A stretch of 64,000 bases of DNA from Clostridia bacterium (GTDB taxonomy: Bacteria; Bacillota; Clostridia; UBA1381), in assembly GCA_017621875.1 (NCBI GenBank), contig JAGASE010000020.1:124001-188000 (forward strand), written 5' to 3'. The notes under the pieces were generated by a model that was not told the origin of the DNA, did not search any database, and saw only the letters and a list, made by a program, of their open reading frames with translations. Below, in pieces: positions 16,328-45,783 of this stretch; the stretch's first letter is position 1, and every line of letters begins with the position of its first letter. The translations under genes and the position numbers were made by a program.

Positions 16328-17731
16328 ATGAACAAGAAAAAAATACTGTCACTGGTGATGAGTATAGTTATGACCGGCACGCTGCTTGCGAGCTGCGGAG
16401 GCGGAACACAAAATGCTTCGACAGACGAAGATGTTACAGTTATATCGCTGTGGGTAAATAATTCACACAGCAAATCCGTTATGGATGAACTGGTAAATGA
16501 GTGGAATAACACAACGGGTAAGGAAAAGGGAATCAAAATTGACTATGTTGTAAAGGGTGATGACTACACAAGTCAGCTGGAGATGGCACTAAATGCGGAT
16601 AATCCGCCGGATATTTTCTTAAAGGGTGCAAATGCCAAAAATGTTGAAAATGGAGTTGTTGCAACGCTTACAGATTATCCTAAAGCAGTAGAGTGGCTAA
16701 AGAACTATGAAGGTTACATTGAATACTACAGCAATCCGTATTACAAGGGTGAACAAAAAATAGTTACAGTTCCAAAGGGCGTAGGCGTATACGGATTGGT
16801 TTATAATAAGGACATGTTTAAGGCTGCCGGAATCGTGGACGAAAACGGAGAGGCAAAGCCGCCTAAGACATACGCTGAAATGATAGAATATGCCAAGAAG
16901 CTGACAAACCCCGAAAAGAAGGAATACGGAATTATATTCCCGGTTAAATGGAGCGGATGGACCACTACCGACATTATTTATCCGGCTTTAGTGAGCGGCG
17001 GAAAAAATTCCGGATATGACAGAAAGACAGGAACGTTTGATTACAGCGATATTGCTCCTATCATGAATGCAATACTGCAGATAAAGCATGACGGAAGTTG
17101 CTATCCGGGTGCAGAAAGCTTGGATAATGACCCGGCAAGAGCACTGTTTGCCGAGGGAAGAATCGGTATGAAGTTTTCCGGTGACTATGATGTTGGCGTG
17201 TTCACAAACCAGTTCCCGGCTAAATGCGACTGGGGTGTTGTTGAATATCCGTCCGAAAATGCTGATGTAAGATACAAAAATCCTATGATTTACACCGAAG
17301 GCGGTGTTATCAGTACAAAGGCTATAGAGCGTGTAGGCTTTGAAAAGGTATTTGAGGTTTATAAATGGTTTAACAGTGACGAGCTTGTTCGTGAGCTTTA
17401 TAAGGAAGGCTTAATAATTCCTTATAAGTATGATATTTATGAGGACATTGTAGATGAATGTAAGATGCCGCAGATTGCAGAATTTGCGAAGATTACAGAA
17501 AACGGTGCAAACGTTATGGCTAACATCAACTCAAGACCTGAGGGCTTTACAGGTCAGAGCATACAGTCACTTTGTGCAAATGATTTCTGGTATGAGAAAA
17601 AGCCGATTGAAGAAACCCTTGCCGAATACAGCAAGGCTTGTACAGAGGGTATTGCTACATATATTGAAGAAAATCCCGACTATGATACATCACCGTTTAT
17701 CGATCCTGATTGGGATATAAGACTCAAATAA
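16328..17731 (+). CDS. Sugar ABC transporter substrate-binding lipoprotein
   Basis: A 467-residue extracellular solute-binding protein (family 1 type). A lipoprotein signal with lipobox LLASC near residue 23 is followed by a polar linker, so it is tethered to the outer face of the membrane. The mature domain contains the hinge-type segments VYGLVYNKDMFKAAGI and AEGRIGMKFSGDYDVG. It is followed by two permease genes. No ATP-binding subunit is in the window, so a shared MsmX-type ATPase elsewhere is likely. Probable cargo is an oligosaccharide that feeds the GH30 and GH38 enzymes; the link is inferred from neighbours and the shared promoter element. Confidence 0.92.
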   Translation: MNKKKILSLVMSIVMTGTLLASCGGGTQNASTDEDVTVISLWVNNSHSKSVMDELVNEWNNTTGKEKGIKIDYVVKGDDYTSQLEMALNADNPPDIFLKGANAKNVENGVVATLTDYPKAVEWLKNYEGYIEYYSNPYYKGEQKIVTVPKGVGVYGLVYNKDMFKAAGIVDENGEAKPPKTYAEMIEYAKKLTNPEKKEYGIIFPVKWSGWTTTDIIYPALVSGGKNSGYDRKTGTFDYSDIAPIMNAILQIKHDGSCYPGAESLDNDPARALFAEGRIGMKFSGDYDVGVFTNQFPAKCDWGVVEYPSENADVRYKNPMIYTEGGVISTKAIERVGFEKVFEVYKWFNSDELVRELYKEGLIIPYKYDIYEDIVDECKMPQIAEFAKITENGANVMANINSRPEGFTGQSIQSLCANDFWYEKKPIEETLAEYSKACTEGIATYIEENPDYDTSPFIDPDWDIRLK

Positions 17732-17741
17732 TTCTATAATG

Positions 17742-17772
17742 GTGTGCTTTATCCAAAACGGATAAAGCACAC
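17742..17772. terminator. Perfect 13-bp hairpin between binding protein and permease genes
   Basis: GTGTGCTTTATCC and GGATAAAGCACAC flank loop AAAAC. No U tract follows. Such hairpins often protect the binding-protein mRNA or weaken readthrough, giving more binding protein than permease. Confidence 0.65.
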
Positions 17773-17810
17773 GCTATGAAATGAATGCATAAAGAAAGGC
17801 GTGAAAAAGA

Positions 17811-18746
17811 GTGTCTAAAACGGACAGAGCAAAAAAGAAAAGGGCTTTAAGCGGAAAAGCACAGGATACCATATCCTGCTATCTGCTTCTGCTGCTGCCG
17901 ATTATTGGCTTTTTATTGTTTAATATTTACCCGCTGCTGTGGCAGATTCAAAAGGCGTTTTACCGTTATAACGGTGTTCCGTCTTACACAAAATATGTAG
18001 GACTTAAAAATTTTATTACTATCTTTACTGAGGATATTCCTTTCTGGAAATCTTATCTGGCTACCTTTCAGTTTACCCTGATAAAAGTGCCGGTGGAGCT
18101 TTGTATAGCATTGTTTATTGCGTCTCTTCTCAGCAATGAATCAATTAAGGGGAAAGGACTGTTTCGGGCAATATATTATGTGCCCGTGCTGTTAAGCTTG
18201 GTTGTTGTGGGAATAATCTATTCAAATTTCTTTACATATTTCGGTGTGGCAAACAGCCTGCTGCAGAAAATAGGGCTGATTTCAGAGCCTATTGATTTTT
18301 TTGCTACAAAGTGGAGGACTATGACGAGCTTAATCGGCGGTCACGTCTGGTGCAACGTCGGAACAAATGTTTTGTTCTTTACAGCGGCTCTTGCGAATAT
18401 TCCAAAGGACTGCTATGAAGCGGCATATCTTGACGGTGCAGGAAGATTTACGACCTTCAGAAAGATTACACTTCCGCTTATGGGACCGGTATTGTCCACT
18501 ATTTTGCTGCTGTCATTTCTCGGTACATTAGGTGTCGGCGAATATATATATCTGACAAGTAACGGTGCTCCGGGAGGCGAAACAACAACGGTGGGAATGT
18601 ACATGCTGAACTATCTTCCTGGCTTTTCAACGGGCAATATTGATATGGGATATGCCAGTGCATTGACATGTATAGTGTCAATAATCAGCGTAATTACATC
18701 ATTTTCGTTCAGAAAACTCAGTTCATGGCTTACAAGCCGAGCGTAA
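17811..18746 (+). CDS. Sugar ABC transporter permease, first subunit
   Basis: A 311-residue MalF/UgpA-type membrane protein with about six helices. The start is a GTG. The EAA loop that contacts the ATPase reads EAAYLDGAGRFTTFRKITLP near residue 203. Charged N-terminal tail (KKKRALSGKAQ) is cytosolic. It forms the channel with the next gene's product, just after the binding-protein gene. Confidence 0.9.
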   Translation: MSKTDRAKKKRALSGKAQDTISCYLLLLLPIIGFLLFNIYPLLWQIQKAFYRYNGVPSYTKYVGLKNFITIFTEDIPFWKSYLATFQFTLIKVPVELCIALFIASLLSNESIKGKGLFRAIYYVPVLLSLVVVGIIYSNFFTYFGVANSLLQKIGLISEPIDFFATKWRTMTSLIGGHVWCNVGTNVLFFTAALANIPKDCYEAAYLDGAGRFTTFRKITLPLMGPVLSTILLLSFLGTLGVGEYIYLTSNGAPGGETTTVGMYMLNYLPGFSTGNIDMGYASALTCIVSIISVITSFSFRKLSSWLTSRA

Positions 18747-18772
18747 AATTATCGGAAAGGAAAGAAAAATAT

Positions 18773-19627
18773 ATGCAGAGAAGAATGTCTCTTTTAGAAA
18801 AAATTATTACATATGCAATATTGATCGTCTTTGCGATAATTATTCTGTATCCTATTGCATTTATAGTTACTGGGTCATTTAAGTCAAATTCAGAGATATA
18901 TATTGATCCGGCAAAGTTTTTGCCGTCGCAGCCGACTCTTGATAATTACCGTCTGCTGTTCAGCAATGAGAATTTTGACTTTGGAAAGATGCTTACAAAC
19001 AGCATTATGTACTCGGTGTGGTCTATTGCATGTTCACTTTTGGTTACAACAATGGGAGCATATGTGTTTTCACGCGGAAATTTCCCGGGCAAGAAAATAA
19101 TTTTCACAGCGTTTACTGCACTGATGTTTATTACACCGGGCTCTATCGCAATTTACTGCAAATTTGATATTATCCGTTTTGCAGGGCTTTCGCCAAATAT
19201 ATATACGCTGATGCTTACTAAATTGTTTGCGGTACCTATTGTAGGATATTATCAGGTAAGGGGATATATTGATACACTGCCCAAAGAGCTGGACGAGTCC
19301 GCACGTATTGACGGCTGCAGCTTTATCGGAATACTTTTCAGAATTATATTCCCGCTTTTGAAGCCGGTGCTTGCAATGCTTGCTATTTTTGCATTTCAGG
19401 GCTCGTGGAATAACTACACAGAGGTTTTGATGTGGACATCGTCAAGACCGGAAAACTGGACACTTACAGTAGGAGTTATGTCTATGAAAAATTCAGGAAA
19501 CGCAGCTATCGGTACGGGATTTACAATGGCGGCTGCAGTAATAAGTATAATCCCTGTGATTATTGTTTACTGCTGCTTTAATAAGCTGATTGTAGACGGA
19601 ATAGCGGCAGGTGCAGTGAAGGGATAA
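18773..19627 (+). CDS. Sugar ABC transporter permease, second subunit
   Basis: A MalG/UgpE-type permease of about 284 residues. The EAA motif reads ELDESARIDGCSFIGILFRI near residue 177. I choose ATG 18773 because GGAAAGGAAAG sits at proper distance; an ATG at 18725 and longer frames overlap the previous gene. It ends 13 bases before the GH30 gene, so importer and hydrolase are one unit. Confidence 0.9.
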   Translation: MQRRMSLLEKIITYAILIVFAIIILYPIAFIVTGSFKSNSEIYIDPAKFLPSQPTLDNYRLLFSNENFDFGKMLTNSIMYSVWSIACSLLVTTMGAYVFSRGNFPGKKIIFTAFTALMFITPGSIAIYCKFDIIRFAGLSPNIYTLMLTKLFAVPIVGYYQVRGYIDTLPKELDESARIDGCSFIGILFRIIFPLLKPVLAMLAIFAFQGSWNNYTEVLMWTSSRPENWTLTVGVMSMKNSGNAAIGTGFTMAAAVISIIPVIIVYCCFNKLIVDGIAAGAVKG

Positions 19628-19640: not shown

Positions 19641-21023
19641 ATGAATAAGATAAAGCTTAATTATGATGTGCAGCGTCAGGAAATAGACGGCTTCGGTGCT
19701 TCCGGATTTGGATATTCCTCAAAGAATATCCGCAGACATAAATATTGTGACGATATTATGACGCTTCTTTTTGACAGGAAAAAGGGTGCAGGTTTGTCAA
19801 TATTGCGAAACGGAATAGGAGACTCCGCTGTTGGCTGGGGTGATGACTTAAACGGTCCTGAAGGAACTATTGAGCCGCAGGACGGCGTTTGGGACTGGAG
19901 TGTTAACGATACGCAAATATGGCTGATGCAGGAGGCTAAAAAGTACGGTTGTGACCTGTTTTACAGTGTGCCATGGAGTCCGCCTGCGTGGATGAAGGAT
20001 AACGACAGCTGCTCAAAAGGACACCTAAAGAAGGATATGTACCGAAAATTTGCAGAGTATCTTGCGGAATATGTGATTGGATATAAAGAGCATTTTGGAA
20101 TTGATATATACGCAATCTCACCGCAGAATGAACCTGAATCAGCTCCGTCATATTCCTCATGCGTTTATACGCCGGAGGAGCTGTGCGAGCTGGTACGAGA
20201 CCATATTGGTCCGGTATTTAAAGAGCGTGGAGTAACCGCTAAATTAATAGTCGGCGAGGCTGCCAATTATGATTTTGATATGATGGAGAAGGTTGCCGAG
20301 AACGAAGAAGCAATGCAGTATGTAGATATGTTTTCAGCTCACGGTTATTGGAGAGACCCACCAATTAAATTTGAAAAGGCACATAGCCTCGGCAAAAAGG
20401 TATGGCAGTCGGAATACTGTGCTATACAGGGCAGAGAAAGCGGAATTACTGACGGTGTAAAGTGGGCGAGAATTATCCATGAGCATATGGTTACGGCAGA
20501 ATCCAGTGCATTTTTCTACTGGTATCTGGCAAACCAGTATTATCACAACGATGAGCCTCTTATCCATATTAACGTAGAGGATAATACATTTGTTGTAAAT
20601 AAACGTCTTTGGACCTTTGCAAATTTCAGCCGTTTTATAAGACCGGGATTTGTAAGAGTAGATATGGAAAATATCGAAAGCGAATTAAAAATTACTACAC
20701 GTCCCGACCCGGAGGTTGTGCTTCCGCCAAGACATACCATTAAGGAAATGTTTAGAAAAGCCGCACCGGCAGTTTATGTAAGTGCATATAAAAATCCGCA
20801 AAGTGATGAGCTTGTTATTGTAGCTGTCAATGACACACAGGAGAATGTTGAAATTGATATAGATTTGAGCGGTGTTGAGAATGCAGATTTTGCAGTATTT
20901 CGTACTTCAAACGATGAGGATTTACAGGAGCTGCACAGAATATCTGCAAAAGACGGATTTTTGCACATTGTTTTAAGACCTGAAAGTGTAACTACATATA
21001 CAAATCAAAGGGACTGGAAATAA
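19641..21023 (+). CDS. GH30 family beta-glycosidase, cytosolic
   Basis: A 460-residue retaining glycosidase of family GH30 (clan A). Predicted acid/base is Glu164 (SPQNEPE) and nucleophile Glu258 (WQSEYC). The motif YSVPWSPPAWMKDN near residue 110 is typical. A beta-sandwich tail follows from residue 370. There is no signal peptide, so it cleaves imported oligosaccharides. It follows the permease genes directly. GH30 covers beta-glucosidase, xylosidase, fucosidase and glucuronoxylanase activities; subfamily is not clear. Confidence 0.88.
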   Translation: MNKIKLNYDVQRQEIDGFGASGFGYSSKNIRRHKYCDDIMTLLFDRKKGAGLSILRNGIGDSAVGWGDDLNGPEGTIEPQDGVWDWSVNDTQIWLMQEAKKYGCDLFYSVPWSPPAWMKDNDSCSKGHLKKDMYRKFAEYLAEYVIGYKEHFGIDIYAISPQNEPESAPSYSSCVYTPEELCELVRDHIGPVFKERGVTAKLIVGEAANYDFDMMEKVAENEEAMQYVDMFSAHGYWRDPPIKFEKAHSLGKKVWQSEYCAIQGRESGITDGVKWARIIHEHMVTAESSAFFYWYLANQYYHNDEPLIHINVEDNTFVVNKRLWTFANFSRFIRPGFVRVDMENIESELKITTRPDPEVVLPPRHTIKEMFRKAAPAVYVSAYKNPQSDELVIVAVNDTQENVEIDIDLSGVENADFAVFRTSNDEDLQELHRISAKDGFLHIVLRPESVTTYTNQRDWK

Positions 21024-21050: not shown

Positions 21051-23327
21051 GTGTTTAAAAGAATAATAAGCAGCTTATGTATCGGAGCAATGATAAGCTC
21101 ACTGGCAGTGCCGGTGCAGGCTGAGGAAACCGATACTGTAAATATTTACTGGAACGACGTTCATCAGCATATTGACGGCTTTGGTGCTGCAATTACACCG
21201 CATGTTGTGCAGCATATGGATCACAATCCTGAAATGCTTGATTTTATGTTTGACACAGAAAAAGGCTTTGGCTTCAGTATTGCAAGATATCAGGTTTTAG
21301 CTGATGAAGAAGTACTCGGCACTATGGGAAATCATATGGATCAGGACGGAACACTTCACTGGGATAGAGACCCATATCAAGTCAGGGCGATTAAAAGAGC
21401 ACAGGAGTACGGTGCAAAGATTCTGGCAACCCCGTGGAGTCCGCCTTCATGGATGAAGGACAATAACTCGCTGTATTACGGCGGCTCACTTTTGCCGGAA
21501 TACTATGACGATTATGCAAAATATCTGACAGAGTATGTTAAGGGGTATAAGGAGCAGCACGGAATTGATATTTCGGTTTTGTCAGTGCAGAACGAGCCAA
21601 ACGCAAATCCGCACTGGGCGTCATGTATATGGTCGGGTGATCAGTTCCATACATTTGTAAAGGATTATCTTGCACCTGCCTTTAAAGAAGCGGGGCTTGA
21701 TACTGAAATAATGCTTAATGATACCGCAAATTTCAGATGGCCGGCTGAAGATTTTCCGTATCTTGAAGACCGGGAGACAAGAGACGAGATAGATATTATA
21801 AGCGGTCACTCCTATTGGAATCTGTATGAAAGATTTTCAAGAGCAAAGGAGCTTTTAAAGCCTATGTGGCAGACAGAAACCAGTGACGTTGATACTGCCG
21901 ATGACCCGTCAATGGAATACGGAATCAGTTGGGCAACCGAAGTACACGTTTTGATGACGGTACCGGAGGTAAATGCGTTTCTGTTCTGGTATATGATGCA
22001 CAGATATGCAAACTCAGAAGCACTTGTAACCTGCCTGTGTGCAGACGGTGTTCGTATTAACAAGCGTGCATGGTGCTTTGCAAACTACAGCCGCTTTATA
22101 CGTCCGGGATACTGGAGGATAGGTGCAGATGAAAGTCCGTATGCTGATACATTTATAACTGCATATAAGGACGAGGAAAGCGGAAAATGCGTTGCAGTGT
22201 GCATTAATGATTCCACCGAAACTCATCAAACTGATTTTAACTTAAACGGCTTTAGTGCAGAACGTGTTACAGGCTATCGCACATCGGAGACAGAGAATCT
22301 TGATAATATAGGTGATTTTGCAGTAAACGGAAGCAACGTTAAGCTTGAGCTTGCACCGAGAAGCGTAACGACCTTTGTATTTGATGGCTGCGAAACAGAA
22401 ATTGCCGAAAGACACATTGAGGCAGAAACAGGCAGTGGAAAAATCGGAAATGCACAAAATTGTGATAATGAAGATTTGTCAGGTGGAATGGGAGTTAATA
22501 ACATCAGTGCAAAGGACAACGGAGTGTATTTTGACCATGTTCCGCTATCGGAGGGAGTAGCTGTACGTTATACATCGGTAAATAATGCGGACTGCGAGTA
22601 TAATGTGTACGTTAATGACAGTCTTGTAAATACTGTAACCTTCCAGTCAACACTGTCTGCAACAGCTGCATCGGCAGATGTTCAGATAACTGCACAAATA
22701 CCTGAGAATGCTACGGTTAAGATAACCGCAAAGGATGATTGTGACGGAATTATTATAGATTATATCGAGCTGCAGGAAACAGCAGAGGCAGAAGGTCTTA
22801 CGCTGCTTACTTCAAGTGCAGCTGCAAACTATTCATGGGCAGCAGATGCGATAGAAACGGTTAATTATGACGGAATTATGACCGTTTCAGAAGGTGATGA
22901 AGGACTTCTTATAACCCGCGGAGATTTTGCACATTCCCTGATTAAAGCAATAGGTGCAGAAACTGCGTGGACCGCAAACTTCCTCGACGCAACCGACGGT
23001 ACAAGCTATTATAGCTCTTTGGGAATCGGTAAAGCAACGGGAATTTTGCCGACGTCAGAGAACAATATGTTCTATCCTACGAAATATTTGAAACGCAGAG
23101 ATATGTTTGTCATAACTGCAAATGCACTTAAATACAAAGGGAAATCTGCTAAAGCAGGATATACGGGCGAATTTTCAGACTGGTCAGAGCTTACCACTGA
23201 GGAACAGGAGGCTGCTGTGCTTCTTATGGAAAATGAAATAATTGCGGGAAGTGACGGAAAATTGAATCCGGACGGATATGTGAATAATGCAGCGGCAGCA
23301 ACAGTGCTGTCAAAGCTTACGCAGTAA
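21051..23327 (+). CDS. Secreted GH30 glycosidase with CBM-like and SLH-like C-terminal domains
   Basis: A 758-residue exported enzyme, starting at GTG with GGAGGTG upstream. Residues 1-24 are a signal peptide ending VQA-EE. The GH30 domain (about 25-440) has acid/base Glu182 (SVQNEPN) and nucleophile Glu276 (WQTETSD), with ATPWSPPSWMKDN near 126. Residues 447-580 look like a CBM6-type lectin domain (HIEAETGSGKIG). From about 585 there are two to three degenerate SLH repeats (FLDATDGTSYYSSLGIGKAT; VLLMENEIIAGSDGKLNPDG), which would hold the enzyme to the cell wall. It is the outer partner of the cytosolic GH30 just upstream. Confidence 0.88.
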   Translation: MFKRIISSLCIGAMISSLAVPVQAEETDTVNIYWNDVHQHIDGFGAAITPHVVQHMDHNPEMLDFMFDTEKGFGFSIARYQVLADEEVLGTMGNHMDQDGTLHWDRDPYQVRAIKRAQEYGAKILATPWSPPSWMKDNNSLYYGGSLLPEYYDDYAKYLTEYVKGYKEQHGIDISVLSVQNEPNANPHWASCIWSGDQFHTFVKDYLAPAFKEAGLDTEIMLNDTANFRWPAEDFPYLEDRETRDEIDIISGHSYWNLYERFSRAKELLKPMWQTETSDVDTADDPSMEYGISWATEVHVLMTVPEVNAFLFWYMMHRYANSEALVTCLCADGVRINKRAWCFANYSRFIRPGYWRIGADESPYADTFITAYKDEESGKCVAVCINDSTETHQTDFNLNGFSAERVTGYRTSETENLDNIGDFAVNGSNVKLELAPRSVTTFVFDGCETEIAERHIEAETGSGKIGNAQNCDNEDLSGGMGVNNISAKDNGVYFDHVPLSEGVAVRYTSVNNADCEYNVYVNDSLVNTVTFQSTLSATAASADVQITAQIPENATVKITAKDDCDGIIIDYIELQETAEAEGLTLLTSSAAANYSWAADAIETVNYDGIMTVSEGDEGLLITRGDFAHSLIKAIGAETAWTANFLDATDGTSYYSSLGIGKATGILPTSENNMFYPTKYLKRRDMFVITANALKYKGKSAKAGYTGEFSDWSELTTEEQEAAVLLMENEIIAGSDGKLNPDGYVNNAAAATVLSKLTQ

Positions 23328-23339
23328 AGGAAGGATGCT

Positions 23340-24242
23340 ATGAAAAAATATATTATATCATTTATTTGTATACTGCTCTTTATAACCGCATCCTGCGGAG
23401 CAAGTGCAAGCTCGCTGCAGAATACTCTGGAACGGAGCGGAAATATCAGGATTTATACAAATAATGTAAAAAGCTTTAATAATTGCAGTGAAAGAATAGG
23501 CAAGAAAGATAAAGAGGACGCGTTCCTTATTTATGCGTTAAACGGTGCAAGGTCGGTTAAGGTTACGGTGTATTCCGATGCATTGATTGAGGAAAGCAGG
23601 ATTGCGTTTTATGTATCAGAAGACGGTGAAGCGTATGAGCCGGTGAAAATGTACCGTGAATTTACAGAAAACGGAAATGTAGGCTATTCTGAATATACGC
23701 TTGTGGCAAAGGGCTTTCCGGAGGATGCACAGTATTTCAAAATAGTAATGCCTGCGACCGAAAAGTTTTCTTATCTGCCGCAGATAGGCAGTGTAGAATT
23801 TTCCGATGAAGACTTTGAGGCTAAAGGCTTGCTGTTTGAAGATGACTTTAAAAACAAAAACAAAATGTATGACATTTCATCAAATTTCAGGTTTGAAAAC
23901 GGCGGAAGCGGATATATGGGCGATAACACTACCACACTCAGAATGTATGATTTAGACAGTGCAATCAAGTATAACATTAAAAATCCTATTAATTTAAAGC
24001 TCAGATATTTCATTATGGACGGTAAGGGCGAGGTTGAGATTTATGCATCCTCAAGGGACGGAGACTACACGTTAGTACAGAGCGAAAAAACTCTGCCGTT
24101 TCATTCTCATAATAACTGGAGCGGCGTAGACCTGACTGTTCAAAACTTCCCGGAGGGGACGGAGTATATTATGCTCAAGCTGCCGGCACACGGTCATTCA
24201 CCTTGGCCACCGGTACTTACAAGGCTGGAGGTATACTATTGA
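23340..24242 (+). CDS. Secreted module-repeat protein A (unknown family)
   Basis: A 300-residue exported protein of unknown function, 12 bases after the GH30 gene. The N-terminus is a signal peptide ending ITASCGASA; the Cys could be lipidated but the lipobox is poor. Two related beta-rich modules follow (about 28-160 and 161-300). The second reads LLFEDDF, EVEIYASSRDGDYTLVQ, FPEGTEYIMLKLP and ends VLTRLEVYY. The same pattern recurs in the proteins at 24239, 26104 and 32526. The arrangement (strand, DG-Y turn, FPxGTxYIK, final V-E-x-Y) resembles discoidin-like sandwich folds, so a carbohydrate-binding role is possible but not shown. Confidence 0.75.
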   Translation: MKKYIISFICILLFITASCGASASSLQNTLERSGNIRIYTNNVKSFNNCSERIGKKDKEDAFLIYALNGARSVKVTVYSDALIEESRIAFYVSEDGEAYEPVKMYREFTENGNVGYSEYTLVAKGFPEDAQYFKIVMPATEKFSYLPQIGSVEFSDEDFEAKGLLFEDDFKNKNKMYDISSNFRFENGGSGYMGDNTTTLRMYDLDSAIKYNIKNPINLKLRYFIMDGKGEVEIYASSRDGDYTLVQSEKTLPFHSHNNWSGVDLTVQNFPEGTEYIMLKLPAHGHSPWPPVLTRLEVYY

Positions 24243-26041
24243 TTGCAAAGATTATAAGCCTTATAATAGGCATCGGAATGATTTTTTGCGGTAGCTTTGC
24301 CGCAGCAGAAGCTCTTGAATATACCGACAGCTTAGTGATTAATAACGGAAGCTTTACAGACAGCGAATTTCCGTGGCGTATATCGGCAAGCAGCGGAATC
24401 AAAAATCACGGTGACAGTTCAGTTAAGAAGAACGGTGACAGTGATGTTGTATACGGTAATACAGCAAATTCAGAGCTTGTTTATGTCGCATCGGAAGGGC
24501 AGGAGTTTATAGTAACTGCCTATCTGGCGGCAGATGCACTTGCCGAGAATGTCTTTGCACTGGAATTTTCGGTCGATAAGCAGAGCTGGACTTTAGGCTA
24601 TACAAGTATAGCAGAGTATATGATTAACACTGAAAATATATCAGGTGAGCCATGGAGAGCTTGTATTCTAAAAGCCGTTGTCCCCGATGAATGTACATAT
24701 GCAAGAGTACGCTGGATTGCAGGGTCTTGGAAGTATATGCTCGGTGAGGTTCAGATGAGAAATCCTGTTGACAGAGGGGATTTTGTTGATGAGCTTACTG
24801 ATTTTAAAACCGTTTCGGAAACGAGCATGTATATGAAAAAGTATACTAAAACTCTTTCTGACGAAACATCTTGCAGTGTAGCGGAAAGAATGCCGTATTA
24901 CTGCGATGTAACACACGAATTTGATGAAAGCTCTGCTATTGTCGGAAAATACGGTGTATATACACCGGGACAATATCTGATTTATGACCTTGATTCGTCC
25001 CAAAGAAGCAGCATATGCATACAGACGGTTTACGATGATGATGTAAACATTCTTCATACGCCTTTTAAGTTTTATATTAAAACTGAGATGGGCTGGGAAC
25101 GAAAAGAAGCGATTTTGCATACTGAAGGCGTTCGGGCAGCGTATTACCTTGAGGATATTTGTGAGGGTGCCAAGCAGTTAAAAATCGTATTTCCGATTGA
25201 AGAAAGCGAAAGATGGGACGCAGCTATTGAGAGAGTTACTGTGCGTCCGGCAGGCGGAATAAAGGCAGAGGTGAAGGGGCTTGCGTATTTTGTGGACGGC
25301 GAGCGTGTATATTCTACACCTGCCAATTATGGTGATACTGTAGGAATTACAGGAGCTATTACCGACAAGGCTGATTATACACTTGTAAATCCGCGGCTTA
25401 TAGCGGCTGCATACGATAGTGCGGGAAAAATTGTTGCGGTAAACAATACAGGTATACTCAAGCCGACAGCACCCGGCGAGGAAAGGGATTTCAGCATAGA
25501 GCTGACTGACCTTGACTTTCAGGCAGAAAGCATAAAACTGTTTTTTTGGGAGGAAAACGAGCCTGTGGCGGTATGTGCAGAAAATGTTGTGTATAAGCCG
25601 GAGGAATTTGATACTTCATCGGGAACATTGACAGATAATTTCGAGGATTTATCAAAATTATGGGAGGTTTCAAGCGGATTCAAAATTGAAACCGACGCTG
25701 ACAGCGAGGTGCATCCGGGGTATGCAAATGTACTGCTCAGGGACTATAACCTTAAAAGAGCAATGAAATATAAGGTTTACGGTGCTGACAGTATGACAAT
25801 TACGGCATTCAGATTCAGAAAAATAGGAACTATTCGTGTATATGCAAGCGGCTATGACGGCGGCTATAAGGAGGTAAATACGGTGCTTACAGGAAATAGC
25901 CATACAGCAGATGACTGGTGGACTGCTAATTACACAGTATCGGAATTTCCCGAAGATACAACGTATATAAAAATTGAAATCGATAAAGGCTCAGGTGCGA
26001 GCTGGACACCTTCAATTGCACAGGTGGAAATAAATTATTAA
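24239..26041 (+). CDS. Secreted module-repeat protein B (unknown family)
   Basis: About 600 residues. I place the start at TTG 24239, seven bases after GGAGG and overlapping the previous stop (TTGA); the next residues form a signal peptide (IAKIISLIIGIGMIFCGSFA). Three modules are visible: about 30-165, 170-345 and 455-600. A short Ig/FN3-like domain (PRLIAAAYDSAGKIVAV ... SIKLFFWEENEPVAV) lies at about 350-455. The last module (VSSGFKIET, TIRVYASGYDGGYKEV, FPEDTTYIKIEIDKG, SIAQVEINY) is plainly homologous to the second module of the preceding protein. Translation is probably coupled to that gene. Function is unknown; extracellular binding is inferred. Confidence 0.75.
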   Translation: MIAKIISLIIGIGMIFCGSFAAAEALEYTDSLVINNGSFTDSEFPWRISASSGIKNHGDSSVKKNGDSDVVYGNTANSELVYVASEGQEFIVTAYLAADALAENVFALEFSVDKQSWTLGYTSIAEYMINTENISGEPWRACILKAVVPDECTYARVRWIAGSWKYMLGEVQMRNPVDRGDFVDELTDFKTVSETSMYMKKYTKTLSDETSCSVAERMPYYCDVTHEFDESSAIVGKYGVYTPGQYLIYDLDSSQRSSICIQTVYDDDVNILHTPFKFYIKTEMGWERKEAILHTEGVRAAYYLEDICEGAKQLKIVFPIEESERWDAAIERVTVRPAGGIKAEVKGLAYFVDGERVYSTPANYGDTVGITGAITDKADYTLVNPRLIAAAYDSAGKIVAVNNTGILKPTAPGEERDFSIELTDLDFQAESIKLFFWEENEPVAVCAENVVYKPEEFDTSSGTLTDNFEDLSKLWEVSSGFKIETDADSEVHPGYANVLLRDYNLKRAMKYKVYGADSMTITAFRFRKIGTIRVYASGYDGGYKEVNTVLTGNSHTADDWWTANYTVSEFPEDTTYIKIEIDKGSGASWTPSIAQVEINY

Positions 26042-26046
26042 TTTGT

Positions 26047-26070
26047 ATATCTTTATAAAAGCTAACGGGA
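26047..26070. repeat. Inverted repeat, left copy flanking protein C gene
   Basis: A 24-base sequence with core TTATAAAAGCTAACGGGA matches the reverse complement of 28115-28138 at 23 of 24 positions. It also forms part of a small local hairpin (GCTAAC-GGGA-GTTAGC, 26061-26076). Confidence 0.7.
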
Positions 26071-26103
26071 GTTAGCATTAAAATATAAAAGGAGAGTGTT
26101 TTT

Positions 26104-28059
26104 ATGAAGAAATTATTATCGCTGCTGTGTGCAGCGGCAATCACCCTTTCGGCAATGCCGGTACTTGCAGAAGATACGGGGACTACATGGGTAGACCCGG
26201 ATCCTGTTGAAGCTTTTGTGGACGAGCTTGATGCGAGCGGTACAACATCCGATGAGAGAAAAGCCAACTTCCTTAATTCCGAGGACAGCGGATATGTTTC
26301 GCAGCGCGACGGTATTTCGCCGAATGCATCTGAGCTTATCGCAGACCTTGGAGCAGAAGCAGGTACAGTTTTCAGAAGAGCAGCAGGCTGGTATACCGAG
26401 GAATCTTGTATCGTATATCGTGTAAATCCCGGCTGGAAGCTGGCGGTGAAAACCTTTGATGTTGACAACGACTACAACGGAGCAGGTGATGTGGATATTC
26501 AACTGACCTTTAAAGGAACACACTATAGAATAGAGTACAGCGAAATTGAATCGGTAAAGGTTAATAACGGATACAAAATTATGGCGGATACAAACAAGCA
26601 TCTTTACATGGCGACACATTATATTGATATTCCGGACGATGTTTACTGGGTGAAAATTTGCTTGCCTGAATGTAATAGTGATGGTACGCTCGGCTATGAT
26701 TCATGGAAAGCAGGTATTATGAGCGTTAGCATGTGGGATAACGAGTTTACAGATGAGCTTAATGATGATGAAACAGAGTTTTTAAGCAGCAGAACTGCAA
26801 CATATATGCCGCAAAGATATGCTATTGATACAAACCGAATCCAGTATAGTAGCGGCGGAGATGCTGTGGGAAGTAATTATCAGAGCACTACATATGGAGG
26901 CGGTGACAGATACCTGACATATGCTGTTGCAGGTGGAAGAGTAGCAGAAATTGAATATCGTGCAAATAAAGCTGTTTCTTCAGCTTTGGACTGTATCAGA
27001 TTATTTGCATCGGAAGACGGCAGTACATTTACACAACTGACCGATACGAAAAATCCTACAAGCCACGGCTCATCCGGCAATGACATTTTTTACAGGGAAT
27101 ATGCATTGCTGCCGGAGGGTACAGCATTTTTGAAGGTAATGCTGCCGGAGTATACGGGTTCATCAACAGCTGCATATACAAACTGGCATATAGGCATAAT
27201 GACTGTAGAGGTAAGAGATGCTGATTTCTATGATGATATTGAGGATAATTTCAGCAACCCTGCCGGAGGCAGCCATGCAGCACAGACTTATTTTTCAAAT
27301 TCTGCATATGACGGATATATAATTCAGAGAGCAGGAGCAAATGAAGCCATTCAATATAGTGCACCTACAGGAACTATAGGCGGAACTGCAATACATATGG
27401 GGGGATATTTTGGCAAAGCAGCTTGGCTTTCATATAAGGCATGGCCGGGCAAGCAGTTCGTTGTTAACAGCTCTAATTATAACACAAGCTATGAGTTAAC
27501 CTTATATGCATCAGAAACTTATACAACCGATACTGCAAATTGGACACAGCTTACCACAGTAAAGGAAGAAGGCGAAGCTATTTCAAACGCCAACGGAACA
27601 GCTGCAAAGCAGGAAATCTATACAGCGACGGTTCCTGAAGGAATGTACTATGTATATATGGCTACACCTTCATTCCCGCTGGCAGACGGAGCAACAACCA
27701 ATGGCGATACATGGAAAATAGGTATCCGCAATGTTACCATGCAGGACGTTCCGACAGCACCGAAGGCTGAATATGAGCACACAAATCCGGGAGATACCGC
27801 AGTAATTGAGGATGCAAAGCTTATTTTAAACGGCAGTGTAACAAAAAATTCAGGTGAATCTGAGAAGGTTTATGTATTCCTTGCATCTTATACCGGCAGT
27901 ACATTAACAGATGTTGACTGTGAATCAGCGACACTGTCCTCTGATGGAAAGCTCGACTACTCACTTAGCGTGGATGAGGCAGATGCTTACCGTCTGTTCA
28001 TCTGGAAGGGTGAGATTGAGCCTATTGCTAAATACGAAATCGACACCGATAATTTATAA
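26104..28059 (+). CDS. Secreted module-repeat protein C (unknown family)
   Basis: A 651-residue exported protein with a clear signal peptide (MKKLLSLLCAAAITLSAMP, cleavage after VLA). Three long modules follow at about 30-210, 212-380 and 381-555, each with an opening D-E/D-N-F type start, a Tyr-rich core, an ASE-DG turn (IRLFASEDGSTFTQL) and a late LPEGTAFLKVMLPE-type strand. Residues 560-651 are the small Ig/FN3-like domain (VYVFLASYTGSTLTDV ... YRLFIWKGEIEPIAKY). It has its own AAAGGAG box and lies inside the 24-bp inverted repeat. No enzyme motif is visible. Confidence 0.75.
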   Translation: MKKLLSLLCAAAITLSAMPVLAEDTGTTWVDPDPVEAFVDELDASGTTSDERKANFLNSEDSGYVSQRDGISPNASELIADLGAEAGTVFRRAAGWYTEESCIVYRVNPGWKLAVKTFDVDNDYNGAGDVDIQLTFKGTHYRIEYSEIESVKVNNGYKIMADTNKHLYMATHYIDIPDDVYWVKICLPECNSDGTLGYDSWKAGIMSVSMWDNEFTDELNDDETEFLSSRTATYMPQRYAIDTNRIQYSSGGDAVGSNYQSTTYGGGDRYLTYAVAGGRVAEIEYRANKAVSSALDCIRLFASEDGSTFTQLTDTKNPTSHGSSGNDIFYREYALLPEGTAFLKVMLPEYTGSSTAAYTNWHIGIMTVEVRDADFYDDIEDNFSNPAGGSHAAQTYFSNSAYDGYIIQRAGANEAIQYSAPTGTIGGTAIHMGGYFGKAAWLSYKAWPGKQFVVNSSNYNTSYELTLYASETYTTDTANWTQLTTVKEEGEAISNANGTAAKQEIYTATVPEGMYYVYMATPSFPLADGATTNGDTWKIGIRNVTMQDVPTAPKAEYEHTNPGDTAVIEDAKLILNGSVTKNSGESEKVYVFLASYTGSTLTDVDCESATLSSDGKLDYSLSVDEADAYRLFIWKGEIEPIAKYEIDTDNL

Positions 28060-28101
28060 AAAAACTTCTAATAGAAGCCCCGTCTATGGGCGTAGAAATA
28101 A

Positions 28102-28131
28102 GCAACGGGATAAGATCCCGTTAGCTTTTAT
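28102..28131 (+). terminator. Hairpin after protein C gene
   Basis: AACGGGAT-AAG-ATCCCGTT forms a perfect 8-bp stem followed by AGCTTTTAT. It could end or slow transcription between protein C and the SLH protein gene. Its right arm overlaps the right inverted repeat. Confidence 0.6.
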
Positions 28132-28138
28132 AAGGATA
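28115..28138. repeat. Inverted repeat, right copy flanking protein C gene
   Basis: This is the reverse complement of 26047-26070 with one mismatch. Together the two copies enclose about 2.1 kb containing only the protein C gene. Confidence 0.7.
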
Positions 28139-28203
28139 TAAGGCTGCGGCATGCACGTGCTGCAGCTAAAGACAAAATGAAAATATCAGGAGGTAACAGG
28201 GTA

Positions 28204-30870
28204 ATGAAATTAAAGAGGCTAACGGCATTGCTGCTTGCAGGAGTCATCTCTTTTACGGTATTCCCGGTTTATGCAAGTGAAAATACACATTATACCGAGG
28301 CTGCCGACAGACTGTATAAGCTGGAGCTTCTGGAGGCTCTGCCGGAGAATGCGGAACTTTCACAGACTATAACCAGAGGTATGGCAGTTAAATATGTTTT
28401 GCCGTTCTGCGGAGTTTCGGCAGGAGAAAAGGGCTGTGATACGGAATTTTATGATGTTGATAAAAAGCATCAGTATTCGCAGTATATTCAAGCAGCGGAT
28501 CAGCTTGACTTAATTCACGGATATAACGACGGAACCTTCCGTCCGGACGAGCCGATAACCTATATTGACGCACTTTCGATATTTGTTAATGCACTGGGAT
28601 ATAAGGATATTGCCGAGACCTACGGCGATTATCCCAAAGGGATTCTTGCTGTAGCACAGAATCTTGAAATTATGCTTTCGGGCAGCTATATCAACAAAGA
28701 GTCCATAACAGTAGGAGATTTCTTGTGCATAATGGATTTAGCGAAGGACAAGGATATTGCAGAGGCACTTGGAGATGGAATGAGAGTGTCATTTGACCGC
28801 ACAGATTCGATTTTAAGCGATATTCATGATATTTACTACGGTGAGGCTATCATGACTGCTAATGAATATACAAGCCTTTCCGAGGACGAATATCCCGGAG
28901 AAAACCATGTAATTATAGGTAATCAACGCTTTGATATAGGCGAAAGAGCAGGAAATGTCAGTGAGCTTCTGGGATATACGGTAGAATACTATTACCGCGA
29001 GGAAGCATCGGGAGATGTTCTTTTGTGGGCAATGGCAGATAAAAAGAATAATACAATTACTATTTCGTCGGAAAAATTAGTGAGCTATTCGGATTTTGTG
29101 TATAGCTACTATAAAACGGAGGGCAGCAGCTATGTATCAAAGGCTGAGCTTGCCGAAGATGCGGATATAATATATAACGGACGTGTAAATCTGCATATGC
29201 AGGAGAGCCTGTGGATACCAGAAAATGGAGAGGTAATTCTTATTGACAATGATGGCGACAGAGAGTATGATGTTGTTAAGATTACTGATTTTCAGAGTAT
29301 GCTGGTAGCTGCGGCATTTTCTGAAACCAGAGTATTAAGAGATAAATACACAAATCTTGACTTGAATTTTGAGGACGAAGCTCTTTATGAAGTGATATGT
29401 ATAAAGCAAGGACAAAGGGTAAGCTTTGACCAGATACAGGAGAATAATGCTTTAAGTATCGCAATGAGCAGCTCTGATAACAGCAAAATACTTGTAACAA
29501 TTTACATATCCGATGCAGTGGTTGAGGGTACTGTATCGGAATACACTGTTGGCGACGGCGAGCCTGATACGGTTGTTATTGAAGGTACAAGCTATAAGCT
29601 GACACCCTATGCTAAGAATAATGCAGGGATTGGCTTAAAAGATACAGGAAGCTTCTATCTGGACTGCAATGGTTATATCGTAGGAAGTGTTTTGGGCTAT
29701 AAAACGGGACTTCAGTACGGTTACTTTATCAAGGCACTTAATAATGAGGATGAGGATGTACTCAGCCTTAAAATTCTGAATACAGACGGAAGAATTATGT
29801 ATTATGACGTCAGCGAAAAAGCAAAGGTAAACGGAGCAAAGGAATCAAATGAAAATATAATATCAACTCTAAAGGTTGGTATTGACGGAACTGTATATGA
29901 AAAATGTGTCGGTCAGCCGATAAAGTATGCACTTAATCCTTATGGCGAGATTACCAAGCTGTTTACTCATAATAAAACCCAGAGTGGAGACGTGTCTGTG
30001 CAGGAGGAACGGATAAGGCTAATAAACGACTTTTCTGCAAAAGGAGTTACATATTATCCTACTGCCCGAACGATTAATATGTCCTGCGGAGTGTCAGAAG
30101 ACGCAGTTGCATTTTGTGTTCCCGATGTAGCATCGCAGGTTGCGGGTCTTGCAAGGGATACTGATTTTGTGGTTGAGGATGTTTCTGCATGGAAGCATAC
30201 AAATGGAAACAGACTTCAGACATTTGATGATGACGATATGGGATATTGTTCTCTTGTTCTGCGTGTAAATATTTTAGGCGGCGACACGATTGATGAAAAA
30301 AAAGACCCGTATGCGATGGTGGATAAGATTACTACAACGATTAATGATGATGAGGAGATTATCAGCGTGCTGCACGCTTATACCGGCGGAAAGAAAATAG
30401 AATTGCGGATAGAAGAAGGCACGGCACTCATAGGAGTTGATGGTGCAAGTGAGCTTACAAGAGGCAGCATAATCGAATACAATACTCTTGATAACGGCAA
30501 AACCGGCTGCGTAAAGCTGATTACAACACCTGATGATTTTGTACCGTCAGATACCTATGACGGCAACCGTACCCGCGAAAATGTAACAGTACGCGGTCAG
30601 GTACAGCGTAATAATTCCGATGTTCTGGTAATTTCCTATGAAAAGAGCAACGGGGAGTATGTTCACAGCTACCCGGCAGGAGCAAGCAATATGTGGTTTG
30701 TGCCGGTAACGGGCGGATATATTCATGTTTATGACAGTGATACAGATGAAATAAAGGTGGTATCAACACTATCCGATGTGAAGGATTATGACCATTACGG
30801 CAATAATGCGTCGCTTGTAATGTGCCAGATGACTTACATGAAGGTAAGCAATGTTTTTGTAATAAACTAA
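28204..30870 (+). CDS. Large SLH-domain surface protein, unknown body
   Basis: An 888-residue exported protein. ATG 28204 follows AGGAGG; the signal peptide ends near VYASEN. SLH repeats occupy about residues 30-210 (TITRGMAVKYVLPFCGV; DLIHGYNDGTFRPDEPITYI; GILAVAQNLEIMLSG), so the N-terminus would bind cell-wall polysaccharide. The remaining 670 residues are beta-rich with repeated short patterns of the type Y-x-V-x-x-K and G-x-I-x-x-Y, and no enzyme motif I recognise. It sits between module-repeat proteins and may present or organise them at the surface. Confidence 0.8.
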   Translation: MKLKRLTALLLAGVISFTVFPVYASENTHYTEAADRLYKLELLEALPENAELSQTITRGMAVKYVLPFCGVSAGEKGCDTEFYDVDKKHQYSQYIQAADQLDLIHGYNDGTFRPDEPITYIDALSIFVNALGYKDIAETYGDYPKGILAVAQNLEIMLSGSYINKESITVGDFLCIMDLAKDKDIAEALGDGMRVSFDRTDSILSDIHDIYYGEAIMTANEYTSLSEDEYPGENHVIIGNQRFDIGERAGNVSELLGYTVEYYYREEASGDVLLWAMADKKNNTITISSEKLVSYSDFVYSYYKTEGSSYVSKAELAEDADIIYNGRVNLHMQESLWIPENGEVILIDNDGDREYDVVKITDFQSMLVAAAFSETRVLRDKYTNLDLNFEDEALYEVICIKQGQRVSFDQIQENNALSIAMSSSDNSKILVTIYISDAVVEGTVSEYTVGDGEPDTVVIEGTSYKLTPYAKNNAGIGLKDTGSFYLDCNGYIVGSVLGYKTGLQYGYFIKALNNEDEDVLSLKILNTDGRIMYYDVSEKAKVNGAKESNENIISTLKVGIDGTVYEKCVGQPIKYALNPYGEITKLFTHNKTQSGDVSVQEERIRLINDFSAKGVTYYPTARTINMSCGVSEDAVAFCVPDVASQVAGLARDTDFVVEDVSAWKHTNGNRLQTFDDDDMGYCSLVLRVNILGGDTIDEKKDPYAMVDKITTTINDDEEIISVLHAYTGGKKIELRIEEGTALIGVDGASELTRGSIIEYNTLDNGKTGCVKLITTPDDFVPSDTYDGNRTRENVTVRGQVQRNNSDVLVISYEKSNGEYVHSYPAGASNMWFVPVTGGYIHVYDSDTDEIKVVSTLSDVKDYDHYGNNASLVMCQMTYMKVSNVFVIN

Positions 30871-30886
30871 GAAAGGACATAAAAAT

Positions 30887-32536
30887 ATGAAGAAATTTAT
30901 TTTCGGATTATTGCTGCTTGGGCTTTTGGCACTTGGGATACCGGCTTTTGCGGCAGTATCGGAAATCTCGGCAGAATTTGACGCAACAGCATCAATACTA
31001 ACTGTTTCGGGAAGCAGCACCGATACTCTTATGGTTATTGTTCCAAAAAACAGCAGCACAGATATTCCGTATGAATTAGAGGATATTGATGAAGTAAGCG
31101 GAAAGCTGCTTGTTTTCGGCGAGGCAAAGTCAGAGAATGGTACATTTTCACAGACCTTTCCGCTGCCGACAGACGAGCCGGATGGAAATTATACCGTGTT
31201 TGTATGCTCAAATGACATGGAAAAGCCGGAAAGAGTAGTATTTCGCTATATAAGTGAAAAAACTCTAAACGATGCACTTGATGAAATAAATGACGCCGGA
31301 GCAGAAGATATTATTTCTATAATAGATACATATAAGGAGCTTTTGGGGCTTGATACGAGCAATTTAAGTGCTACTGATGCAGAAAATATTATACTTGTAA
31401 GACCGGAAGACGGATTTAGCGATCCTGATGAGCTGCAGGCAGGTATGGATAAGGGGTATGCACTGACTGTGCTGAATAGCTCGCAGAATGCGTCGGAATT
31501 TAAGACAAATATAGAGAGCTTTAAGGAAACGCTTGGGCTTGACCTTGCCGTTTACAGCAGTATCGGCACTATTGATAGCCGCAGCGAAAAGCAGCTTGCT
31601 GTCTGCGAAGATGTTCTTGCAAAGCTGCCTGTTACAGATTTGACAGCATTTTGCAGCGAGCTTAACAGCACCGCAATGCGTACCGATATAAAGACAGCGG
31701 AGGATTGGGCATATCTTCGTGATATGGTCACTGAAACTTATCGTGAGCAGCTGGATATTTCGGAGGCTGCTTGGGAAAAGTATGAAAAGCTGAAGGATAA
31801 AGCTGCAGTTTTCAAGAGCCTGTATAATAAAAAGCCCGATGACATTGAGGACGCCTTTGAAGACGCTGTAGAGGCACAGTATAAATCGGAAAAATCAAGC
31901 AGCAGCTCCTCATCGTCAAGCGGCGGCTCAGGAGGCTCAAGTATAAAGGGCTCTGCTGTGATTTCCACTCCTATAATTACCGAGCCGGAAAACGCTTTTT
32001 CCGACCTTGACGATGCTGTGTGGGCAGAGTCGGACATCACTGCTCTTAAAAATGCAGGAATTTTGGCAGGTGACGGCAGCGGAAGCTTCTACCCGAACAG
32101 AACTGTTACACGCGAGGAGCTTGTTACAATGGTGGTAAAGGCTTTTGGCTTTGAAAAGTCAGAAGATACGGCTTTTGAAGATGTTTCACCTGATGCATGG
32201 TATGCAAACAATATTGCAGCAGCATTTTCTTCAGGTGCTATAAGCGGAATTTCCGAGACAAAATTCGGCGTGGGTATGGCGATAACCCGTCAGGATTTAG
32301 CGACAATCCTGTTCCGCTGTTCAGGACTTAATGCTATAGAAGAAGGCAAAACCTTTGCTGACGAGCAGGAAATTGACGAATATGCAAAAGAGGCTGTTTC
32401 GGTGCTTTCAAGCCATGGGGTAATAAGCGGTATGGACGAAAATAATTTCGGGCCGAAACAAACTGCAACTCGTGCTCAGGTGGCGGTTATGCTGAACAGA
32501 CTGCTGAATCTCAAGGAGGGAAACAATGATGCTTAA
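30887..32536 (+). CDS. SLH-domain surface protein with Ser-rich linker
   Basis: A 549-residue exported protein. The signal peptide (FIFGLLLLGLLALGIPAFA) is followed by a beta-sandwich of about 100 residues, then a helical region (about 125-325) with KEL and KLPVTDLTAF-like helices. A linker KSSSSSSSSGGSGGSS near residue 340 leads into three clear SLH repeats (366-549): FSDLDDAVWAESDITALKNA, FEDVSPDAWYANNIAAAFSS and FADEQEIDEYAKEAVSVLSS, each with the G-x-x-G-x-F-x-P-x-x-x-x-T-R-x-x element. It overlaps the next gene by 11 bases. Confidence 0.87.
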   Translation: MKKFIFGLLLLGLLALGIPAFAAVSEISAEFDATASILTVSGSSTDTLMVIVPKNSSTDIPYELEDIDEVSGKLLVFGEAKSENGTFSQTFPLPTDEPDGNYTVFVCSNDMEKPERVVFRYISEKTLNDALDEINDAGAEDIISIIDTYKELLGLDTSNLSATDAENIILVRPEDGFSDPDELQAGMDKGYALTVLNSSQNASEFKTNIESFKETLGLDLAVYSSIGTIDSRSEKQLAVCEDVLAKLPVTDLTAFCSELNSTAMRTDIKTAEDWAYLRDMVTETYREQLDISEAAWEKYEKLKDKAAVFKSLYNKKPDDIEDAFEDAVEAQYKSEKSSSSSSSSSGGSGGSSIKGSAVISTPIITEPENAFSDLDDAVWAESDITALKNAGILAGDGSGSFYPNRTVTREELVTMVVKAFGFEKSEDTAFEDVSPDAWYANNIAAAFSSGAISGISETKFGVGMAITRQDLATILFRCSGLNAIEEGKTFADEQEIDEYAKEAVSVLSSHGVISGMDENNFGPKQTATRAQVAVMLNRLLNLKEGNNDA

Positions 32537-33815
32537 GAAAATATTGTTGACTTGTATGTGTATCAGCCTGATGATTTCATCTGCAACTTTTGCACAGGCA
32601 GAAGCTTCTCTTACGGATAAATGCGATGATTTTTCAAATCTGTATGAATACAGCGAATACTGGTCGATTCAAACCAATAATAAGAGCAAGCTGGGCGAAG
32701 ACGGAGGACGTTTTCAGCGTAAGTCGGGAGCTGTCAGTGATGATGCAGACGATTCACAGTATATAACCTATTACTATCCGCGTCCGGAATCTGCCGAGGT
32801 GTTGTTTTACTACACTTCAGAGGAATACATATCGGCTGTGACGATTTCGGGAAGCAGTGATAATGTGAGCTTTACTGAACTTGAAACTACACGTACTGCG
32901 TATACAGGATGTGACAGTACCTCCAGCTGGAGCGGGGCTTATATTAAAGCAACTGATATTCCTGATGGTGTAAAATATATTAAAATTGAAATTGACAAGT
33001 CTGCAAATGTAACAACAGGCTGTGCAATCGGTCAGGTTACACTGGTGCAAGGCGAATCAAGCTATGTAAATACGGCTATTCCCGAGCCGGGTGAGTATAA
33101 TATAACTGAGGATAATTGTCTGAGTTTTGATATGCTTTACGACAAAAGTGAAAACTGGAGAGTTGAAACCAGTGAGGATAAATGGGGAGATGCAGGAAGA
33201 ATAATCAAATCTACCGATACAGATACAGAATATCTTGTATATAAGATTCCATCTGTAGTTAAACTTGATATGGCAATAAACTATACGGGTATGACAGATC
33301 CGTTTGAATTTGTAACGGTTGAAGCAAGCCCGGACGGAGAAAACTATACCGTGGCAGAGATTCCGGACGGTGCTCCGGCGGGTCTGACTGGAGGAAACTG
33401 GTCAACCTATACAGCGTCAATCGCACTTCCAAAAGGGACGGAGTATGTTAAAATTTCAGTCAGTCAGACTGATTATACAGCTCCGTGGTGGTTGAATTTT
33501 GTTAATTTTAAATTTTATTCATCTTCACCATATGAAATAAAGGACGGAGAAATTGATGTGACAGAAGGCACAGCTGCCGCTGATTATACGATAAAGGTAA
33601 ATTATAAGGTGTATGATAATATTACAATGTATCTGGCAGCATATGACGAAAGCGGACTGCTGCTTGATATATGTGCTGAAAGTGCTACGGCTGAGATGGG
33701 AGATGTGCAGCTCAATGCTTCTCTTGACCTTCCCGATGAAACAAAATACGTCAGAGCATTTTTCTTAAACGGCTTGCAGGGAATGCACAGAATTTGCGAA
33801 ACGCAGGAGCAGTAA
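32526..33815 (+). CDS. Secreted module-repeat protein D (unknown family)
   Basis: A 429-residue exported protein beginning ATGATG inside the previous gene. Signal peptide: about 1-25 (ISSATFAQAEA). Two modules follow, about 26-180 and 190-340: YSEYWSIQTNNKS ... DGVKYIKIEIDKS, and SENWRVETSEDKW ... LPKGTEYVKISVS. They match the modules of proteins A and B. The C-terminal 85 residues are the Ig/FN3-like domain (MYLAAYDESGLLLDI ... KYVRAFFLNGLQGM). It ends the surface-protein run, just before a palindrome and the sensor kinase gene. Confidence 0.77.
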   Translation: MMLKKILLTCMCISLMISSATFAQAEASLTDKCDDFSNLYEYSEYWSIQTNNKSKLGEDGGRFQRKSGAVSDDADDSQYITYYYPRPESAEVLFYYTSEEYISAVTISGSSDNVSFTELETTRTAYTGCDSTSSWSGAYIKATDIPDGVKYIKIEIDKSANVTTGCAIGQVTLVQGESSYVNTAIPEPGEYNITEDNCLSFDMLYDKSENWRVETSEDKWGDAGRIIKSTDTDTEYLVYKIPSVVKLDMAINYTGMTDPFEFVTVEASPDGENYTVAEIPDGAPAGLTGGNWSTYTASIALPKGTEYVKISVSQTDYTAPWWLNFVNFKFYSSSPYEIKDGEIDVTEGTAAADYTIKVNYKVYDNITMYLAAYDESGLLLDICAESATAEMGDVQLNASLDLPDETKYVRAFFLNGLQGMHRICETQEQ

Positions 33816-45777: not shown

Positions 45778-45783
45778 AAGAAT

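Follow-up and report, generated by a model that had tools for sequence, protein, structure and literature searches.

A locus at positions 21051 to 33815 of a 64,000-nucleotide stretch of Clostridia DNA (GCA_017621875.1, contig JAGASE010000020.1, positions 124,001 to 188,000; hereafter the window) encodes, in this order, a secreted glycoside hydrolase of family 30 (GH30), three exported proteins designated A, B and C, two proteins with S-layer homology (SLH) domains designated S1 and S2, and a fourth exported protein, D. Proteins A to D are built from a repeated module, and it was this module that the first-pass annotation placed in the foreground. The feature that now leads is instead the S1/S2 pair, together with a C-terminal immunoglobulin (Ig)-like domain shared among the exported proteins. 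Family relations, pairing, linkage, SLH anchoring domains and folds were computed from the sequences, and coordinates are collected in Table 1.

Residues 36-217 of S1 match the structure of SpaA-SLH bound to pyruvylated wall polymer (Z 17.4, 3.0 Å over 159 residues), and this SLH trimer is followed by small beta domains, some of them OB-like. Fold searches with the S1 core gave no lectin or enzyme match, only OB-like pieces with Z under 8, and such weak matches do not show that the fold is new. S2 consists of a domain of beta structure and helical repeats, a Gly/Ser-rich linker and a C-terminal SLH trimer. An SLH trimer is present in S1 (by fold), in S2 (three repeats) and, in degenerate form, in the secreted GH30, where residues 592-753 fit the full SLH-trimer profile (66.6 bits), and both the SLH-like tail of this enzyme and the two SLH proteins had been correctly picked out at first pass. 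Judged from these domains, anchoring of the three proteins to a wall polymer is well supported. The host genome (1.99 Mb in 24 contigs, 92.6% complete) has two genes of the PF04230 pyruvyltransferase family, which also matches in E. coli and others and is not specific for CsaB, and Omp85 was not found in this 92.6% complete genome, control genomes being matched as expected; both observations fit a single-membrane cell with SLH anchoring. Some diderm Firmicutes tether their outer membrane through SLH domains (PMC10628300). A role of S1 as an OmpM-like outer-membrane tether, which would combine SLH with a porin, was rejected, given the missing Omp85 and an S1 model in which small beta domains follow one another, no porin being among the matches listed.

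A profile of the S1 core that excludes SLH identifies 15 S1 genes in the genome of the window, and an S2-specific profile, also without SLH, identifies 14 S2 domains, every one of which (14/14) lies beside S1 or is fused to it. With 14 of the 15 S1 genes paired with S2, the tandem pair is a feature of about 14 loci of this genome, and the Sus-type layout proposed at first pass is stronger than the window by itself had indicated. The remaining S1 gene (L096:8943-13659) is unpaired; it is surrounded by housekeeping genes of the lepA type, and its SLH neighbor is a different one. An unpaired S1 of about 865 residues is found in many genomes of the group and may be the ancestral surface protein. 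The usual order is S2 followed by S1 with a gap of a few to about 40 bases, and the window and the rumen metagenome-assembled genome (MAG) SIG436 have S1 followed by S2. Two natural S2-S1 fusions of ~1400 residues are known (L098:6444-10628 and L210:219-4535), in which the S2 domain and SLH repeats are joined to the S1 core.

The pairing extends to other genomes. In 35 of 40 loci sampled for S1 paralogs elsewhere in the order, the gene next to S1 lies on the same strand and encodes two or more SLH domains; one more of the 40 is a long fusion. The S2-specific domain is present in 59 of 68 SLH neighbors of S1. Of 20 S1 loci sampled from Clostridia families beyond the order, 10 have the S2 domain in an adjacent gene, and in a further three the adjacent gene encodes three SLH domains. 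A search of six other genomes with both profiles showed the link between S1 and S2 to be common and not perfect. S1 and S2 co-diversify: over 57 pairs their tree distances are correlated (r 0.45, reached by none of 2000 permutations), and 20 of the 57 pairs have the same nearest neighbor in both trees, where 1 is expected. S1-like matches were found in all 41 genomes searched (the host and 40 relatives), many with more than ten, in a full-length search that matches SLH repeats as well. The S1 core occurs in 85 of the 291 genomes sampled from the class, and these 85 come from some twenty families; Monoglobus, Ructibacterium gallinarum and many MAGs from rumen and gut are among the named members. 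In a phylum-wide sample only 7 of 298 other genomes match it, each with one weaker match.

Proteins A to D contain ten related modules of about 140 to 175 residues (two in A, three in B, three in C and two in D). That the four proteins share a module, as the first-pass annotation stated, is established as homology by pairwise BLAST (A2-B3, 2e-21; D1-D2, 6e-9; C1-C3, 3e-9; C1-C2, 7e-7; A1-C2, 4e-7; A2-D2, 2e-6; B3-D1, 5e-6), the E-values of which come from a tiny within-set database and are valid as a within-locus test only, and by profile searches; chance similarity of motifs is ruled out by the same two lines of evidence. The number of copies had been put too low, at eight or so, and the motif given for them (ASxDGxY, FPxGTxYIKI and V-E-x-x-Y) fits A2, B3 and, partly, others, the modules C1 to C3 forming a looser branch. 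A profile of eight modules recovers exactly those eight in the whole genome and nothing more, and it gives matches in 7 of the 40 related genomes. The modules that diverge most, B1 and B2, are detected by a wider profile at 1e-23 and 7e-4, respectively. In scans of A to D the modules reached no Pfam or NCBIfam family threshold, including that of F5/8 type C (PF00754). The statement that they are not a named carbohydrate-binding module (CBM) therefore holds at the level of families and not at that of the fold, which is a known one. In the predicted structure of D2 with its Ig-like domain (mean pLDDT, the per-residue model confidence, 90.8), the module part (model residues 1-144) is a jelly-roll sandwich whose best match is the gingipain K2 adhesin domain (Z 12.3, 2.9 Å over 130 residues), and it also matches MAM domains and TmCBM27 (Z 10.2, 4.0 Å over 140). 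In addition, a related genome encodes a 2495-residue protein of the S2 type (L201:10875-18362) with nine tandem modules, Big_5, an Ig-like domain and an SLH trimer, possibly a long glycan-binding stalk, and its tandem modules reach F5/8 type C (PF00754, 3.5e-13), the best stretch lying inside a module. These matches of model and relatives rule out a wholly new fold, and the module is best described as a divergent, remote member of the lectin/CBM jelly-roll group, as far as the predicted structure allows. We infer that the modules of A to D bind sugar.

The Ig-like domain is common to B, C and D, and its supposed C-terminal position is correct for C and D; in B it is internal and followed by a module. 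For this part of the model (residues 145-240), the match is to a GH2 beta-mannosidase, in its second domain (Z 9.6, 2.6 Å over 94). Counted with a trimmed profile limited to this domain, 22 of the 34 matches in the genome lie within 10 kb of S1 genes, in zones that make up 16% of the genome (p 3e-10). A C-terminal Ig-like domain and SLH domains never occur in one protein (0/76), and the two may be alternative means of retention at the surface. That the proteins with Ig-like domains dock on S1/S2 is conjecture.

Table 1. Genes and domains of the locus and its flanks (window coordinates).
Feature	Position	Strand	Evidence or detail
GH38 alpha-mannosidase-like enzyme, upstream	12547..15219	+	Glyco_hydro_38N 2.7e-34
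ABC sugar importer (substrate-binding protein, two permeases), upstream	16328..19627	+	
Importer substrate-binding protein	16328-17731	+	SBP_bac_1 2e-22
Importer first permease	17811-18746	+	BPD_transp_1 8e-15
Importer second permease	18668-19627	+	Own sequence and profile match
GH30 without recognizable signal peptide	19641..21023	+	Glyco_hydr_30_2 4.5e-25
Secreted GH30	21051..23327	+	GH30/GH59 matches
Degenerate C-terminal SLH trimer of secreted GH30	22824-23309	+	SLH-trimer profile, 66.6 bits
Protein A, two modules	23340..24242	+	Modules 23415-23810, 23829-24239
Protein B, three modules	24239..26041	+	Modules 24332-24763, 24782-25252, 25622-26038
Internal Ig-like domain of B	25259-25597	+	
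Protein C, three modules	26104..28059	+	Modules 26212-26742, 26746-27222, 27226-27750
C-terminal Ig-like domain of C	27757-28053	+	
S1, N-terminal SLH trimer then ~700-aa beta-rich core with OB-like domains	28177..30870	+	
SLH trimer of S1	28282-28758	+	SpaA-SLH fold match; profile match to SpaA SLH structures
S2	30887..32536	+	SLH 4.6e-30; three SLH repeats
Beta and helical-repeat domain of S2	31079-31996	+	S2 domain family
C-terminal SLH trimer of S2	31997-32494	+	
Protein D, two modules	32526..33815	+	Modules 32610-33053, 33114-33524
C-terminal Ig-like domain of D	33528-33812	+	
Membrane sensor kinase	33892-35385	+	Kept with locus in L114
LuxR-type response regulator	35382-36098	+	Kept with locus in L114
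GH2	36105-38240	+	
GH130	38266-39444	+	

The locus lies downstream of a sugar importer, as had been noted. The GH30 that precedes the secreted enzyme is probably cytosolic, judging by its N terminus. The most likely start of protein B is TTG 24239, which overlaps the stop codon of A and is preceded by GGAGGT. Neither an SLH nor an Ig-like domain was found in protein A; its signal peptide has a lipobox-like ITASC, and the orthologue of A in SIG436 (L114) is without a lipobox. SIG436 keeps the order A-B-C-S1-S2-D-sensor kinase-response regulator, with an S1 that is 44-46% identical, and this conservation indicates that the locus in the window is not a chance arrangement. Further GH38-type genes follow GH130, among them one for a 520-residue GH38-like protein (41530-43092) that matches the C-terminal part of the GH38 family only and may be a truncated or split enzyme. 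Beyond it, at 43210-46572, are a pyruvate formate-lyase-like glycyl radical enzyme and its radical SAM activase. Upstream, at 4969-11741, are a GH10-like enzyme (without SLH), a mandelate racemase/mannonate dehydratase-like enzyme, 2-keto-3-deoxy-6-phosphogluconate (KDPG) aldolase and a PfkB sugar kinase. With these uronate catabolism genes beside those for GH30, GH38, GH130 and GH2, the substrate may carry both uronate and mannose, and to name it a mannose-containing glycan is a weak guess.

Taken as a whole, the locus is read as the surface half of a Gram-positive polysaccharide utilization locus (gpPUL), with an anchored S1/S2 pair, putative glycan binders (A to D), a cutting GH30 and ABC import, and this we hold to be reasonably probable. 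In the proposed mechanism, S1 with its N-terminal and S2 with its C-terminal SLH trimer would be exported and held at the wall, where they would form a dedicated surface pair. Proteins A to D would be exported glycan-binding proteins made of the divergent jelly-roll module of the galactose-binding/CBM type, and B, C and D would probably be tethered at the surface by their Ig-like domain, with S1 and/or S2 as the simplest partners. Captured polymer would be cut outside the cell by the anchored GH30, the ABC importer would take up the oligosaccharides, and cytosolic GH38, GH2, GH130 and GH30 would finish them, the sensor kinase and response regulator switching the locus on. The S1/S2 pair would have been copied into about 14 loci, one set for each substrate class, as with SusC/SusD in Bacteroidota, although the proteins here are unrelated to those two and the cell would have no outer membrane. 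Glycan binding, tethering or docking through the Ig-like domain and substrate specificity are deduced from the computed relations, and glycan capture, with binding deduced in this way, is a likely function of the locus from its gene content.

In the strongest alternative, S1 and S2 are S-layer or wall-architecture proteins, that is, locus-specific tiles that provide spacing or display only, with A to D binding or merely decorating. The SLH trimer of S1 resembles those of Sap and SpaA, its core resembles no lectin or enzyme, one S1 of the host genome stands alone by lepA, and most of the related loci examined hold an unpaired S1. Paired S1 genes, unlike unpaired ones, are nevertheless found in glycan loci. 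In the relatives, Ig-domain genes accompany 35 of 40 loci versus 11 of 45 control loci, and importer genes 18 of 40 versus 3 of 45, the control set being mainly unpaired S1 loci found with a six-sequence S1 alignment. In the host genome, importers are present in 9 of the 13 other paired loci, as well as in the window, and the pair loci encode large exported proteins with GH74-like BNR repeats, GH42, pectate-lyase-like, WbsX and CBM6/9/4_9/96 domains. Many proteins at the S2 position also have large extra N-terminal regions, with whole lengths of up to about 2300-2500 residues. We consider a purely architectural role unlikely, although it retains some weight.

An improbable alternative gives the modules and Ig-like domains a general adhesive role, on surfaces of the host or of the community, and no part in nutrient capture. 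The nearest folds, gingipain cleaved-adhesin and MAM domains, would agree with this. The operon-like linkage to the importer, the sensor pair and GH130, GH2, GH38 and GH30, and the core gene order kept in SIG436, speak for nutrient capture instead, as does a protein of Ructibacterium gallinarum (L163) in which the module is joined to a polysaccharide-lyase-like DUF4962/heparinase II/III region, an F5/8 domain and SLH. That the window holds an ordinary gpPUL with unrelated SLH proteins adjoining by chance is very improbable, for even though SLH is abundant in the genome (87 repeats), the S2 domain belongs to a specific family outside SLH that accompanies S1 genome-wide, and fusions and co-diversification bind the two together.

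Several points weigh against the glycan-capture reading. The unpaired S1 beside housekeeping genes implies that S1 alone has another, older role, and some S1/S2 pairs have no importer within 20 kb. When the host genome is taken by itself, the tree distances of S1 and S2 are not significantly correlated (r 0.20; 233 of 2000 permutations). The Ig-domain profile was seeded from S1 loci and the enrichment near S1 is somewhat inflated, and the mutual exclusion of Ig-like and SLH domains is weak evidence, both using protein ends. Finally, the best fold matches of the module include non-glycan adhesin and MAM domains, and fold likeness alone shows no function.

How single-membrane gut Clostridia other than cellulosome makers hold and degrade complex glycans at their surface is, to our knowledge, poorly understood, and we know of no marker like susCD for the prediction of PULs in Gram-positive bacteria. 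The S2-S1 pair, being conserved and countable, can serve in that role over a wide range of gut Clostridia. It also directs attention to many surface proteins without annotation, and it allows a direct test of whether glycan capture by a surface pair has evolved a second time, independently. In its fullest form, which we advance tentatively and with some doubt, the idea is that S2 and S1 form a distinct Gram-positive pair for acquiring glycans. Anchored by SLH, the complex would be duplicated along with every substrate-specific locus and would have enzymes and binding proteins docked on it via the Ig-like domain. It would be a functional counterpart of SusC/SusD and surface glycan-binding proteins that evolved independently in a large group of gut Clostridia. 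The layout is a variant of the gpPUL unless S1/S2 proves to capture glycan or dock enzymes. No description of the pair was found in the open literature, which did not include the Monoglobus pectinilyticus genome paper, where a prior mention is possible, nor did that literature yield a link of Monoglobus with SLH or of gpPULs with the S-layer.

Among known systems, the gpPUL is defined by a polysaccharide-degrading enzyme, an ABC importer and a regulator that are encoded together (PMC5320581). The window has all of these, in GH30, GH130 and GH38, in the substrate-binding protein and permeases, and in the sensor kinase and LuxR-type regulator, and it differs in the S1/S2 pair, since the gpPUL as described there has no dedicated recurrent surface pair and neither SLH nor S-layer is mentioned. 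What the layout adds to the gpPUL is a surface pair multiplied like susCD, and this pair is apparently undescribed within the limits of the literature search. Like the SLH S-layer proteins Sap and SpaA, S1 has an SLH trimer of that fold (Z 17 to SpaA-SLH), but its ~700-residue core matches no S-layer assembly domain convincingly, and S1 has S2 as its partner and occurs in multiple copies at sugar loci. The module is a jelly-roll sandwich of similar size to F5/8 type C/CBM32, CBM27 and gingipain cleaved-adhesin domains, from which it differs by its own motif pattern and its 10 copies over four proteins. With the cellulosome the shared idea is that non-anchored proteins attach to an anchored scaffold; no dockerin or cohesin was among the Pfam matches of GH30, A to D, S1, S2 or the scanned neighbors of other pairs, which rejects a cellulosome as such, and the Ig-like domain would, by conjecture, have to play the dockerin/cohesin part. 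The Sus systems of Bacteroidota use outer-membrane lipoproteins, in contrast to SLH wall anchoring in a genome where no Omp85 was found, and no SusC/SusD or TonB-dependent receptor domain was found in GH30, A to D, S1 or S2. In both, a tandem pair recurs in copies at many glycan-specific loci, with enzymes and surface binding proteins encoded alongside.

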